Source: Acidilobaceae archaeon (GTDB lineage: Archaea; Thermoproteota; Thermoprotei_A; Sulfolobales; Acidilobaceae). Taken from it: DNA of 64,000 nt. Below the pieces are notes generated by a model, which was not told the origin of the DNA, did no database searches, and was given only the letters and a program-made list of their open reading frames with translations. The stretch covers positions 186,001 through 250,000 of the forward strand of contig JALWPV010000011.1 in assembly GCA_027080775.1 (NCBI GenBank), in the 5' to 3' direction. The translations under genes were made by a program, and so were the position numbers. Positions 24,682 through 30,254 of this stretch are shown here, one piece after another (within the stretch, counting starts at the first letter, position 1; each line of letters starts with the position of its first letter).

Positions 24682-25212
24682 TCACCTAGCTAGGGCTAGG
24701 TAATTCCTTGTGACGGTATGCAGGTCCTCCCGCTTACACGCCAGCTCGGCGACTCCCACAGCCTTCGGACTTACCCCAGCGACCTCGGCGATAAGTGACG
24801 CACACCTGTCCTTCTCGTGGCTCACCGCGTAGGCGAATAGATCCCCCTTAGATGCCCGGGTTATTATATCAGCTATTTTCCTCGCCTGGAGCGTGCCTAA
24901 CAGGATACCAGCCGTAAGTAGTGAGGGTCTCACGAGCCTTCGCCTGCCAGATAGTGTGTATTCCAGCGTGTAGAGATAGGCTTGCAGGACCTCGCATGGC
25001 CTCCTGGGGCGTGGGAGGCCTACTAGTACTACGCCTCTCTCTTCAGCCCTCCTAGAGAGAAGAGCTAGCTCACCGGGGTCTCCGCTAAAGGTAGAGTATC
25101 CTATGTAGAGTGTGACGCCTAGAACATCTACACTATAGCACTCAGCGCCTACTTCATGGATCCCCCTAGCTCTCTTTCCACCTCCTTCTTCTCCCAAGGG
25201 AAGACCACCCAC
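24682..25212 (-). CDS. Cgi121-like subunit of the KEOPS complex
   Basis: KEOPS makes the N6-threonylcarbamoyl adenosine of tRNAs; Cgi121 binds tRNA and the Bud32 kinase subunit. This 176-residue product has the typical helical core (about 70-125: CEVLQAYLYTLEYTLSGRR...LLTAGILLGTLQARKIADII) followed by a beta/alpha tail with a SLIAEVAG segment. The N-terminus is uncertain: no ATG exists in the first 40 codons, so a GTG at 25212 or TTG nearby is used, overlapping the upstream fusion gene by 50-64 bases. TsaC of the same pathway is at 45 kb. Confidence 0.75.
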   Translation of the reverse strand: MGGLPLGEEGGGKRARGIHEVGAECYSVDVLGVTLYIGYSTFSGDPGELALLSRRAEERGVVLVGLPRPRRPCEVLQAYLYTLEYTLSGRRRLVRPSLLTAGILLGTLQARKIADIITRASKGDLFAYAVSHEKDRCASLIAEVAGVSPKAVGVAELACKREDLHTVTRNYLALAR

Positions 25213-25928
25213 TTATCCGTGCTTGCAGCATAGTAGTCCGGCACGAACTTAGTCCACGGCTTTATATAGAGTGTAGCCGTTACTAGGCTGCGGGGGCCGT
25301 AGAGCGAGAGGAAGTTTACAACAGTCTCCAGCGTCAGGCCGCTGTCGCTAATATCGTCAACCACTAGCACCTTCTTATCATTAATGTTGCCTATTAGGGG
25401 TCTCCTGATGTAGGGTCGCTTCCCGCGGACGCCAGCACGCTCGTAGAGCTTAACCTCCACGGTCTCCAAGTCAGGAACCCCTAGGACGTCAGCAATTATC
25501 CTAGCCGGTATCACACCCCCCCGAAGGACGCCCACAATAACGTCTACTTCCCGGCCATCTCTGACGATTTTCTCTGCTACCCGATATGAGAGTTCTTCTA
25601 CATCGCTCCAGGAGAGCTCTAGGGTCTCCAGCCCGCCGTGGTTTACGGGTAGTATAACTATTTCTCTAGCTCTGCCCGGCACTGCTATCCTCGAGTCAAC
25701 GCCATCGACGAATACCAGGTAACCTGGCCTCGGCTTGCCATCCTCGTCGATCACATCCGCGAGTACCTTGTATCCAGCCCTAAGGAGCCGCAGGGCCTCA
25801 GCCCAGGTCTCAGCCTCAACCTCCACCTCCCTGACGCCAACGTCTCGCGCCAAACCACCGAGAAACACTACCCGTATACTCTCCCTAGACCTGTGGCTGC
25901 TAGTTGCCAGGGCCTCCCCTTCACGCAC
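25149..25928 (-). CDS. MoaD/ThiS-like ubiquitin-fold domain fused to a phosphoribosyltransferase
   Basis: A 259-residue two-domain protein. Residues about 18-99 follow the beta-grasp pattern of MoaD/ThiS/SAMP: a first strand IRVVFLGGLARDVG, a helix (WAEALRLL), YLVFVDGVDS near 70-79, and the closing IVILPVNHGG whose Gly-Gly is residues 98-99. Residues about 105-250 are a type I phosphoribosyltransferase with VIVGVLRGGVIPA and the PRPP loop VVDDISDSGLT (190-199), like xanthine/hypoxanthine PRTases. The Gly-Gly sits exactly at the junction. The gene overlaps the Cgi121-like gene. Substrate and any processing are unknown. Confidence 0.82.
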   Translation of the reverse strand: MREGEALATSSHRSRESIRVVFLGGLARDVGVREVEVEAETWAEALRLLRAGYKVLADVIDEDGKPRPGYLVFVDGVDSRIAVPGRAREIVILPVNHGGLETLELSWSDVEELSYRVAEKIVRDGREVDVIVGVLRGGVIPARIIADVLGVPDLETVEVKLYERAGVRGKRPYIRRPLIGNINDKKVLVVDDISDSGLTLETVVNFLSLYGPRSLVTATLYIKPWTKFVPDYYAASTDKWVVFPWEKKEVERELGGSMK

Positions 25929-26058: not shown

Positions 26059-26277
26059 TTATGCCTCCTCCCTCTCGCGTGCAGCCTGTCTCTCCCTGAT
26101 TTTAATTAGGTGCGTTATATAACCAGCGATCTGGTTCCTAAGCTTCTTAGATCTATACTCGATCAGCGTGCTCACAACCCTCTTGTTGTGCTCGAAATCC
26201 CTCGTAAATAGGTCTGGGTACATCTCGAGAAGCTTCCTAGCAGTCCTCTTCACGAGTGCCGTCCTCACCTTTCCCAT
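26059..26277 (-). CDS. rps17e: 30S ribosomal protein S17e
   Basis: A 72-residue basic small-subunit protein starting MGKVRTALVKRTARKLLE, with the conserved FEHNKRVV and KLRNQIAGYITHLI segments. Length is standard for archaea. The gene has its own TATA element 36 bases upstream and is divergent from the thermosome gene. Confidence 0.95.
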   Translation of the reverse strand: MGKVRTALVKRTARKLLEMYPDLFTRDFEHNKRVVSTLIEYRSKKLRNQIAGYITHLIKIRERQAAREREEA

Positions 26278-26361: not shown

Positions 26362-26424
26362 GAAGTGTAGCCATAAGGGACTGCTGGGAGCTTAGGAGGA
26401 CCCGGGTAACAGGGGGTGTGGGAA

Positions 26425-28062
26425 ATGGCGGCTGTTGAGCCCACGGGGATTCCAGTAATCATACTGAAGGAGGGCACCCAGAGAACCTACGGCAGGGAGG
26501 CCCTCAGAAGTAACATAATGGCTGTTAGAGCTGTCGCTGAGATCCTAAAGACCACTTATGGCCCTAAGGGCATGGACAAGATGCTAGTCGATAGCCTGGG
26601 CGACATAACAATTACCAACGACGGGGCCACTATCCTGGACAAGATGGACATACAGCACCCTGCCGCCAAGATGCTAGTCCAGATAGCGAAGGGCCAGGAC
26701 GAGGAGGCCGGCGATGGCACCAAGACCGCAGTAATATTCGCTGGCGAACTACTCAGAGAGGCCGAGAAGCTGCTAGACAAGAACATACACCCCACAATAA
26801 TCATCGAGGGCTACAAGAAGGCCCTAGCGAAGGCGATAGAGACTATTGAGTCAATAGCCGAGCCTGTGAGCATAGACGACGATGAGAAGCTACTCCTAGT
26901 TGCAAGGACGAGCCTCAACAGCAAGGCTGTACGCGACGCCAAGGAGCACCTCGCCCGCATAGCAGTAGAGGCCGTTAAGGCCATAGCTGAGAAGCGCGGC
27001 GACAAGTGGTACGTCGACCTCAACAACGTCGGCATGATAAAGAAGCACGGTGGCAGCATCTTCGATACAAGGCTGGTCAAGGGCATCGTACTCGACAAGG
27101 AGGTCGTACACCCAGACATGCCTAGGAGGGTTGAGAACGCCAAGATAGCCGTGCTAGACGCCCCACTGGAGATAGAGAAGCCCGAGCTGGACATGGAGGT
27201 AAGCATAACGAGTCCCGAACTCATAAAGAGGATGATGGAGAAGCAGGAGAAGATTCTCGCAGAGAAGGTGGAGAAGATTGCTGCTACTGGTGCTAATGTG
27301 GTGATTACTCAGAAGGGTATTGACGAGGTTGCGCAGCACTACCTAGCGAAGCACGGTATCATGGCCGTGAGGAGGGTTAAGAGGAGCGACATAGAGAAGA
27401 TAGCCAGGGCTACAGGGGCCAGGATAGTAACGAACATCGACGACCTGAAGCCGGAGGACCTAGGCTACGCAGAGCTAGTGGAGGAGCGCAAGGTAGGAGA
27501 AGACAAGATGATCTTCATAGAGGGAGCAAAGAACCCGAGAAGCGTAACAATACTCATACGCGGCGGCTTCGAGAGGCTCGTTGACGAGGCCGAGAGGGCG
27601 CTAAGGGACGCTCTGAACTCTGTAGCCGATGCAGTAATGGACGGTAGGATAGTCGCTGGCGGCGGCGCCATAGAGGCCGAGGTCGCAAAGGCTCTAAGGG
27701 AGTACATCAAGACGCTGGCCGAGAAGGAGAGGCTTGCGATAGAAGCCTATATCAGGGCAATCGAGTCTATACCTCAGACCCTGGCCTACAATGCTGGCCA
27801 TGACCCGATAGACGTGCTAATGGACCTAACCTCGGCCCACGCTGAGGGCAAGAAGTGGCATGGCATCGACATAGAGACTGGCGAGATAGTAGACATGTGG
27901 GAGAAGGGAATCATAGAGCCGGCACGCGTGAAGATAAACGCCCTGAAGGCTGGCACCGAGGTAGCAACCCTCATACTAAGAATCGACGATGTAATCGCCG
28001 CTAAGAGGACTGAAGAAGAGGAGAAGAAGAGCGAGAAGAAGGAGGAAGAGGAGAAGGAGTAA
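26425..28062 (+). CDS. Thermosome (group II chaperonin) subunit
   Basis: ATP-driven folding chamber subunit, 545 residues from the ATG. Signature segments: [27 protein letters not shown], and GAIEAEVA...[10 protein letters not shown]. The C-terminus is a Lys/Glu run without the Gly-Gly-Met repeats seen in some families. An upstream GTG at 26416 would add three residues; the ATG gives the usual MAxxxPTGIPV start. No heat-shock operator was recognised. Confidence 0.96.
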
Positions 28063-28133: not shown

Positions 28134-28760
28134 ATGTATGATGATTACGTCCTATTCGTGGCTGGGGTTCCCGGCACCGGGAAGAGCACACTATCTAGGC
28201 TCCTCTCTTCTGAGCTCAACTGCAGAGTCTACGAGACCTCGGAACTCGCTATCTCGCTGGGAGTAGCGAGCCCTGATCCTACTGGCCGTTACACGAGCGT
28301 GCTAACTCCTGAAGGCGCTGAGACCGTGGCTAAGGCTCTCGTCAGAGCTTCAAGGAAGGGGTGCATTATAGCTTCTACAGTGTATCCTGAGGTTCTCCTT
28401 GATCTTATGCAGTTCTCGGCGCTGGCCGTGGTCTTGCTGAGGCTAGATCCTAGGATCCTGGAGAGGCGCCTCAGAGAGCGCGGATGGCCGAGACCTAAGG
28501 TGTTGGAGAACCTTGTAGCCGAAGCACTTAACTACTACCACGAAGCGCTGTGGGATCATAGGCACTACGTGTTCGAGGTTGACACCACAGGTAAGAGCCC
28601 CCTGGAGACCCTCCACGCCACACTAGATCTCCTATGTGAATGGAAGCCAGGCTTTCACGTCGACTGGCTAGAAGACGAGTCCCTGACCGAGCTTGTCAGT
28701 AGCTGGCTGGGGGAACTCGATCTTCACAATAACTGGCTCCCCGAGGGAGGGAGCATATAG
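28134..28760 (+). CDS. Fap7/AK6-like nucleotide kinase
   Basis: Homologue of Fap7/hCINAP, an adenylate-kinase-type ATPase that helps finish the small ribosomal subunit. The 208-residue protein has a P-loop GVPGTGKST at about 11-19 and the LID-like RLRERGWPRPKVLENLVAEAL segment (about 110-130). About 30 residues at the C-terminus (ELVSSWLGELDLHNNWL) go beyond the usual ~180 and overlap the convergent ATPase gene by 93 bases. Confidence 0.8.
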   Translation: MYDDYVLFVAGVPGTGKSTLSRLLSSELNCRVYETSELAISLGVASPDPTGRYTSVLTPEGAETVAKALVRASRKGCIIASTVYPEVLLDLMQFSALAVVLLRLDPRILERRLRERGWPRPKVLENLVAEALNYYHEALWDHRHYVFEVDTTGKSPLETLHATLDLLCEWKPGFHVDWLEDESLTELVSSWLGELDLHNNWLPEGGSI

Positions 28761-30254
28761 TAGCGCCTCCCCTACCCCTAGTCTAGAGACCCTGTCCCTC
28801 AGGGAGGGCCTGAGGCCTAGAGTGTCAGCTATAAAGTTCTTATCGCTCGCCGCGCGGAGAGCATGCACAATCTTCGTTGATGTGTTGAGGACTAACGACT
28901 CTACACTTGACGGGGACTGTGTAATAACTACCATACTCATCCCATACTTCCTGGACTCTGCCATGAGGCGCGCTAGGAAACCCTGCTCTCCACTAAAGAC
29001 GTTATGAGCCTCATCCACTATGTAGATAGCGGGCGGCAGATTGCTTCTAACCCTCCAGTAGTACTCGCTGGCCAAGAGGAGTAGCTCGAATGCCCTTCGG
29101 GCGAAGCTCGTCCTTATACTGCTCGACTCTACAACCACAAGGCCATCCATTGAGAGAGGCTCGAGACTCTTTGCAAACAGCCCGGGGTACCTGTTGGCGA
29201 GTATACCTATCTTCCTTAGGAGCCCCCTCTTGACCTCGCGATCCCACTTACTCTCCTCGGGCAGAGCCTCGATCGCCTCAAGGAGCTCTTTAACGCTTTC
29301 AGGGGCTCTACTCGAGACAACCTTGTCTAGTAGGTATGCTTGGGGCCCGCTTAGGTCTAGAGCCGAACTGAGTACCTCGACCAGTCCCTCACTATCGTCT
29401 CCCGAGACAGGCCACACGCCAACACCGTCCCTGGTGGGATCCAGAACCCGCGGTCTACACGATGATAGCAGCCTAGTGTACTCACCCGCCCAATCGAGTA
29501 CAACCACCCTCCAATCGAGTTCCCTGTAGAGGCGGCATGCTAGTATGGCAGCCGTTGTGCTCTTGCCTGTTCCAGTGGAGCCGAAGATGCCCACATGCCC
29601 TAGTATATCACTAGCATCGATAGCTACGGGGACATCTACAGGGCTATCTATTCTTCTACCAATATAAACCGCTCTGCTACGCGGCCGACGCGGAGCCTCC
29701 CTCATAGCACTGCCGACTATCACTATGGGGAGTGATCCCTTTTGAGGCCTCATAGCGTCTATCAGCGATGAGATGCGGAGAGAGGGGCTACTGATCGCCT
29801 CCACCCTGAAGCTCTTGAGCGCTGAGGCTAGAGAGGCTATTATCTCAGACTCAACAAGCACCTGGGAATCCCGTGGCCCGAGGATCAACAGCAGTGAGTC
29901 ACTCCCCTCCGGGCTAATCAGCGAGGTCATGATATACTCGAGTCCGGTCCTGGCTGCCCTATCCTCAAGTATCCTAGCAAGAGTCTCTGGCGCCGAGTTG
30001 TCGAGTGCCTTAATTCTTAATGCTATAGCGGGCCTTTCACTGGCGCTGACCACCGCCTTCCTCCGCGGCGCTGCCGCCACCACAGCAAGAGAAACCACTG
30101 CTAATAATAAAATTAGTATATATTTTATTTCATTAATATTTATTATACCAGAGTAAGCCAAAAGAATCAGTGAGAATGCGATCCCGAGTAATAGTCTCAA
30201 GGCTCGAGGGATCCCGTCCAGCCTCCCGAGGACGCCATCCACAGGGCTCCCCAA
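28668..30254 (-). CDS. Membrane-anchored HerA/VirB4-like ATPase
   Basis: The 528-residue protein has two N-terminal membrane helices (about 19-36 and 44-62), a region without clear homology (about 65-205), then a HerA/FtsK-type motor: Walker A GSTGTGKST near 225, a VVLDWAGEYTRLL strand, the Walker B-type PAIYIVDEAHNVF near 425, and VVITQSPSSV. HerA relatives pump DNA; in crenarchaea the membrane-bound form CedB imports DNA. No Ced partners (CedA, CedA1, CedA2) are adjacent, so the role is open. An AT-only stretch encodes the second membrane helix. Confidence 0.8.
   Translation of the reverse strand: MGSPVDGVLGRLDGIPRALRLLLGIAFSLILLAYSGIININEIKYILILLLAVVSLAVVAAAPRRKAVVSASERPAIALRIKALDNSAPETLARILEDRAARTGLEYIMTSLISPEGSDSLLLILGPRDSQVLVESEIIASLASALKSFRVEAISSPSLRISSLIDAMRPQKGSLPIVIVGSAMREAPRRPRSRAVYIGRRIDSPVDVPVAIDASDILGHVGIFGSTGTGKSTTAAILACRLYRELDWRVVVLDWAGEYTRLLSSCRPRVLDPTRDGVGVWPVSGDDSEGLVEVLSSALDLSGPQAYLLDKVVSSRAPESVKELLEAIEALPEESKWDREVKRGLLRKIGILANRYPGLFAKSLEPLSMDGLVVVESSSIRTSFARRAFELLLLASEYYWRVRSNLPPAIYIVDEAHNVFSGEQGFLARLMAESRKYGMSMVVITQSPSSVESLVLNTSTKIVHALRAASDKNFIADTLGLRPSLRDRVSRLGVGEALLYAPSLGEPVIVKIEFPQPATDKLGQGLVF

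Follow-up and report, generated by a model that had tools for sequence, protein, structure and literature searches.

A Urm1 domain fused to a purine phosphoribosyltransferase in heat-loving archaea as a probable precursor for JAMM cleavage after an invariant Gly-Gly

The window, by which we mean the whole 64,000-nucleotide stretch of DNA analysed here, carries on its minus strand a gene (25149..25928) with a GTG start that encodes a 259-residue protein, in which a Urm1-type ubiquitin-fold domain is fused to a purine phosphoribosyltransferase (PRTase). We propose, with a probability of about three in four, that this protein is a precursor cut by a JAMM protease after Gly99 to give Urm1 and a PRTase of normal length. 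Cleavage, the role of JAMM and the function of the freed Urm1 are all inferences, with no cleavage, mass-spectrometry or expression data behind them.

A fusion of a ubiquitin-fold domain with a PRTase had been predicted at this place from the DNA letters alone, and the reading frame is present there as described. Its beta-grasp domain occupies residues 18-99 (25632..25877, minus strand, as are the other parts of the gene), or approximately 16-99, and ends in P94-V-N-H97-G98-G99, with the proposed cleavage site after the last residue of the His97-Gly98-Gly99 motif (25632..25640). A variable linker of residues 100-106 (25611..25631), free of in-frame ATG, GTG or TTG codons, separates it from the PRTase domain at residues 107-253 (25170..25610). 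The core of the latter begins near W107 and is that of a complete type I PRTase, including the PRPP-binding loop VVDDISDSGLT (V189-T199; 25332..25364), which was read from the sequence and is conserved in the fused family. The Gly-Gly foreseen at the junction, at the end of an ILPVNHGG stretch, and the full PRTase foreseen a few residues past it were therefore both correctly located.

Profile and structure searches, together with the gene neighbourhood, identify the N-terminal domain as Urm1 rather than a generic MoaD/ThiS domain. Residues 18-99 match NCBIfam Urm1_like (NF053661) with E 3e-10 and 40 bits, under the curated cut-off of 70 bits, which is exceeded only by five genomes of family f11 (Sulfolobaceae type); all other Urm1-type genes of the 98 relatives likewise fail to reach it. 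The same residues match S. solfataricus Urm1 (PDB 4wwm) with E 0.011; the 'LE' that follows the Gly-Gly in this entry is most likely an expression tag. Profile A2, built from the fused domain and its stand-alone counterparts, finds yeast Urm1 (2pko, E 6e-10) and also 4wwm, the second match being expected because Sulfolobaceae-type Urm1 rows sit in the profile. AlphaFold predicts a confident beta-grasp, with a pLDDT of 86.6 for the domain modelled alone, and a Foldseek search with this model gives SAMP1 and Urm1 as the best PDB matches, with SsUrm1 and fungal Urm1 among the top ones. In the full-length AF2 model the block of residues 91-100 has a mean pLDDT of 65, which marks a low-confidence junction. 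The fold that the original prediction had staked on residues 18-99 is thus present, but its assignment to the MoaD/ThiS type did not stand: the domain has no match to PF02597 (ThiS/MoaD) at E <= 1, none was found at the fused locus of the window genome at E <= 0.01, and the PvxHGG end is of the Urm1 type, clearly separable from the FPPxxGG end of the MoaD type, so that a MoaD or ThiS identity was rejected. The HGG closes the Urm1 domain but stands internal to the polypeptide.

The second half, predicted to be a purine-salvage PRTase, can be placed more precisely, being of the archaeal GpT-2 hypoxanthine-guanine-xanthine type, with its 6-oxopurine PRTase activity inferred. It matches Pfam PF00156 (E 1e-24), and its closest solved structure is the S. 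solfataricus GpT-2 HGXPRT (4z1o), which is matched by sequence with E 4e-39 and by Foldseek with a TM score of 0.83 by target and 39% identity. Whereas the window PRTase is fused, 4z1o is a stand-alone enzyme, and it has 7 residues ahead of the point where the match starts, at query residue 106. Judged from this alignment, cutting behind Gly99 would give the PRTase an N-terminus of roughly the length seen in its stand-alone homologue.

The surroundings of the gene point to the same identity of the first domain. In the window the order is S17e, fusion and Cgi121-like gene, with the ribosomal protein S17e gene upstream of the fusion on the same strand (26059..26277; PF00833, E 3e-19), and past it a thermosome (HSP60) subunit on the plus strand (26416..28062; PF00118, E 1e-193) and a HerA-like ATPase on the minus strand (28668..30254; PF01935, E 5e-20), both also neighbours at the Sulfolobus urm1 locus (PMC2948915). 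Makarova and Koonin described the Sulfolobales Urm1 neighbourhood as S17, the small protein arCOG07188, HerA and HSP60 (PMC2948915); the window neighbours match it, and therefore the fused domain holds the place of the Urm1 that has been studied experimentally (PMC4569737, PMC12625751).

Downstream, the fusion is overlapped by a gene for a probable divergent homologue of the KEOPS subunit Cgi121 (24682..25212, minus strand), whose true start probably lies inside the ORF. Its resemblance to Cgi121, anticipated in the original prediction, holds at the level of the family: family profile A4 matches Cgi121 structures (1zd0, E 1e-12; 2k8y, E 6e-8) and 11 of 32 members match PF08617, but by itself the window protein has no Pfam match. 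The gene 3' of Urm1 belongs to one family throughout the order, seen in loci L031-L035 and many others, which includes a gene of about 130 residues beside the f11 urm1, and this gene is probably arCOG07188. Cgi121 had been described as absent from Sulfolobales and Desulfurococcales (PMC2948915), a point that later KEOPS papers may have addressed.

Full-length Urm1-PRTase fusions occur throughout GTDB family f1, a family of heat-loving archaea, and their presence in 43 genomes rules out an artefact of one assembly. All 43 fused proteins keep Pro94, His97, Gly98 and Gly99 at a median pairwise identity of 50%, which likewise rules out a Gly-Gly by chance and satisfies the expectation that it be kept among fused relatives. 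Around the junction the mean column entropy rises from 0.88 bits at residues 95-100 to 2.35 at residues 101-105, and after the second Gly comes a linker of 6-15 residues in which 12 different residues occur directly next to it, among the most variable positions of the protein. The PRTase gene tree, from which genus g6 is missing, needs one change and is consistent with a single origin of the fusion (support 95/84). Two g6 genomes (G027 and G047; loci L070 and L071) have re-split the fusion and are nested within fused g6 relatives; a second PRTase tree, to which g6 was added, lacks the separate-gene outgroup and is rooted at its midpoint only. The re-split Urm1 of these two genomes ends in HGGVFGG or HGGMLGG, with a second terminal Gly-Gly four residues on.

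In sister families the same motif is a true C-terminus. The Urm1 gene of f4, f8 and f10 is separate, has HGG as its exact end and either overlaps the PRTase gene or adjoins it, and the f11 Urm1 likewise ends at HGG. Most genomes of f3 and f5 have short tails past HGG on Urm1. Within f2, genera g51 and g52 have Urm1 joined to a Cgi121 homologue, as does a single f5 genome (G051), and HGG again marks the junction (L209-L212, L205, L048); no such fusion was found in f1, and this is apparently an event separate from the fusion to the PRTase.

A further constraint comes from two single-contig genomes, G015 and G023, in which the only match to the Urm1 profile is the fusion, and no PF02597 ubiquitin-like protein (Ubl) was found by profile search at E 0.01. 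Both keep JAMM, E1 and Ncs6-type genes. With no other Ubl detected, a fusion left uncut would leave E1 without a usable detected Ubl.

These observations bear on the choice, left undecided by the original prediction, between a precursor and a fixed regulator. It is conceivable that the protein stays whole, with Urm1 serving the PRTase as a fixed regulatory or docking domain and HGG kept as a structural element, and this would agree with a fusion kept family-wide, with a tree compatible with one origin of the fusion and with a two-domain model that folds well. Yet HGG is invariant though the neighbouring linker drifts in length and sequence, it is the true C-terminus in sister families, one sub-lineage has re-split the fusion, the same junction motif joins Urm1 to an unrelated partner as well, and G015 and G023 would have an E1 but no usable detected Ubl; we therefore consider a permanently whole protein unlikely. 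The invariant HGG, the exact HGG ends of the sister genes, the re-split within the fused clade and the co-occurrence with JAMM described below favour a precursor, the cleavage being an inference. A variant that we hold with equally low confidence treats the fusion before cutting as a zymogen-like or sensing form, in which Urm1 would keep the PRTase (or Urm1 itself) inactive until the JAMM cut activates both together. If this were true, purine salvage and the supply of the sole modifier or sulfur carrier found in G015 and G023 would be tied together one-to-one.

The JAMM assignment rests largely on co-occurrence. A JAMM gene (Prok-JAB, PF14464) scores over the cut-off in 41 of the 43 genomes in which Urm1 extends past HGG, compared with 8 of the 41 with an exact HGG end (Fisher p 2e-13); counted by genus, the numbers with and without JAMM are 14/0 for extended and 3/13 for exact-end Urm1 (p 5e-6). 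The 43 extended genomes, drawn from several families and each at least 85% complete, should not be confused with the 43 fused sequences, which form a different set. These counts are uncorrected for phylogeny, and the families share ancestry; for f11, the counts take in only those genomes in which the C-terminal tail of Urm1 was read, and genera were pooled. By this cut-off f1, f3, f5 and g51/g52 are positive for JAMM, and f4, f8, f10, f11 and most other f2 genera are negative. Some exact-HGG genomes have it too (g35, some f3, G139 and f15), so JAMM is not sufficient for extension. At least two f3 genomes carry the JAMM gene directly beside an Ncs6-type gene for tRNA thiolation (G087:C2:34420-35156; G078:C37:8204-8949).

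The window genome (G000) encodes a JAMM/MPN+ protein with an intact HxHP..S..D motif away from the fusion (G000:C28:25815-26078), an E1-like protein (G000:C28:78207-78890) and an Ncs6-type protein. Against the view that JAMM processes the fusion it can be said that JAMM has other likely substrates in this genome, in the form of a MoaD-MoaE fusion. The genome also carries further MoaD-type Ubls, and the argument from a sole detected Ubl applies to it less cleanly than to G015 and G023. The MoaD-MoaE-like linear fusion, identified by eye, has an internal SGG junction of the classical JAMM substrate type (L229:764-1627, minus strand), and a ThiS-family frame of 151 residues (L231:841-1293, plus strand) ends in ...VSPRALFVV, without Gly-Gly.

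Biochemical precedent exists for the proposed cut. HvJAMM1 cleaves a SAMP1-MoaE fusion exactly after the Gly-Gly, the cleavage being JAMM-dependent in vivo and HvJAMM1 being needed there for the fusion to work (PMC4443979), while CsJAMM cuts SAMP precursors and CsRpn11 a ubiquitin precursor (PMC6043591). By analogy with HvJAMM1 on SAMP1-MoaE and CsJAMM on SAMP precursors, we infer that Urm1-PRTase is cut after Gly99. According to this proposal, one polypeptide of Urm1, linker and PRTase would be translated, and the JAMM/MPN+ metalloprotease encoded elsewhere in the genome would cut it after Gly99, freeing a Urm1 with an exposed C-terminal Gly-Gly. The E1-like enzyme of the genome could then adenylate the freed Urm1, which may serve tRNA 2-thiolation by the Ncs6-type enzyme, protein urmylation or both. 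The second product would be a purine-salvage PRTase with an N-terminus of about stand-alone length.

The cut after Gly99 could also be the work of some protease besides the detected JAMM, or of the fusion itself, as a precursor needs cutting but not by this particular enzyme, and two genomes with extended Urm1 have no JAMM over the cut-off (G033 and G047, incomplete MAGs at 92% and 87%). We regard this as distinctly improbable in view of the strong co-occurrence of JAMM and the biochemical precedent for it. Still less probable is a role of Urm1 as a proteasome tag built into the protein to control PRTase turnover, with the 20S proteasome trimming Urm1 from the front. In support of it, one report describes the S. 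acidocaldarius 20S proteasome digesting the Urm1 of N-terminal Urm1-GFP fusions, with GFP accumulating as an intermediate (PMC4569737); but trimming of this kind leaves unexplained the invariant Gly-Gly, the exact HGG ends in sister genomes and the association with JAMM, and it would destroy the only detected Ubl of G015 and G023. That the PRTase is also made alone from an internal translation start, the fusion being only apparent, can hardly be credited, for although the linker contains an in-frame ATG, GTG or TTG in 19 of the 43 fused genes and the split genes necessarily start separately in G027 and G047, no start codon lies in the linker of the other 24, among them the window gene (which rules out a linker-internal start in the window gene), the frame is open in all 43, and the C-terminus of Urm1 would remain blocked.

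Fused or extended Ubls have been described before, and a cut after an internal Gly-Gly has a parallel in eukaryotes. In eukaryotic ubiquitin-ribosomal protein fusions the modifier is N-terminal and is released by a cut after Gly-Gly; the modifier, the partner, the protease class and the origin all differ from those of the window fusion. JAMM-cut Ubl-enzyme fusions are already known for the MoaD branch, where the MoaD-MoaE and SAMP1-MoaE fusions (Deinococcus DR0402/DRJAMM and Haloferax HvJAMM1; PMC4443979, PMC8832034) likewise have an N-terminal Gly-Gly Ubl followed by an enzyme in genomes with JAMM; MoaD and MoaE, however, share one reaction, whereas no reaction is known in which Urm1 and a purine PRTase both take part, and the window Ubl is of the Urm1 type. 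A Ubl-Cgi121 fusion is known from Thaumarchaea (Makarova and Koonin 2010, PMC2948915), in a related neighbourhood (S17, Ubl, Cgi121) and with the Ubl also joined to a neighbouring gene, but its partner is a KEOPS subunit and not a PRTase. The Caldiarchaeum ubiquitin precursor (CsRpn11) and SAMP precursors (CsJAMM; PMC6043591) likewise have an extension past Gly-Gly removed by a JAMM-family protease, the ubiquitin precursor carrying a nine-residue tail where the window fusion carries a complete enzyme. The free-standing Urm1 of Sulfolobales (Saci0669 and SsUrm1 4wwm; PMC4569737, PMC12625751) shares fold, HGG end and neighbourhood with the window domain, but is unfused and ends exactly at HGG, and the f11 genomes examined have no JAMM over the cut-off. 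A survey of archaeal gene fusion and fission (PMC11237513), searched by term, lists MoaD-MoaE and MoaD-MoeB and does not mention Urm1. In the literature searched, which excluded subscription literature and database annotations and included term searches within the Ubl papers, we found no Urm1-purine PRTase precursor, no repeated capture of downstream genes by Urm1 and no tie of these to JAMM.

The repeated fusion of Urm1 to its downstream gene in genomes with JAMM, to the PRTase in one lineage and to Cgi121 in others, suggests that JAMM makes Urm1 tolerate C-terminal fusions. If the proposal is true, an archaeal Urm1, a relative of eukaryotic Urm1, would in some lineages start out as part of a fused precursor, like eukaryotic ubiquitin, and JAMM proteases would mature Urm1 and not only MoaD/SAMP. 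Since G015 and G023 showed no Ubl other than the fusion, cutting of the fusion should in that case be needed there for any E1-dependent sulfur transfer or urmylation, and the fusion of these two genomes would offer a simple system for testing.
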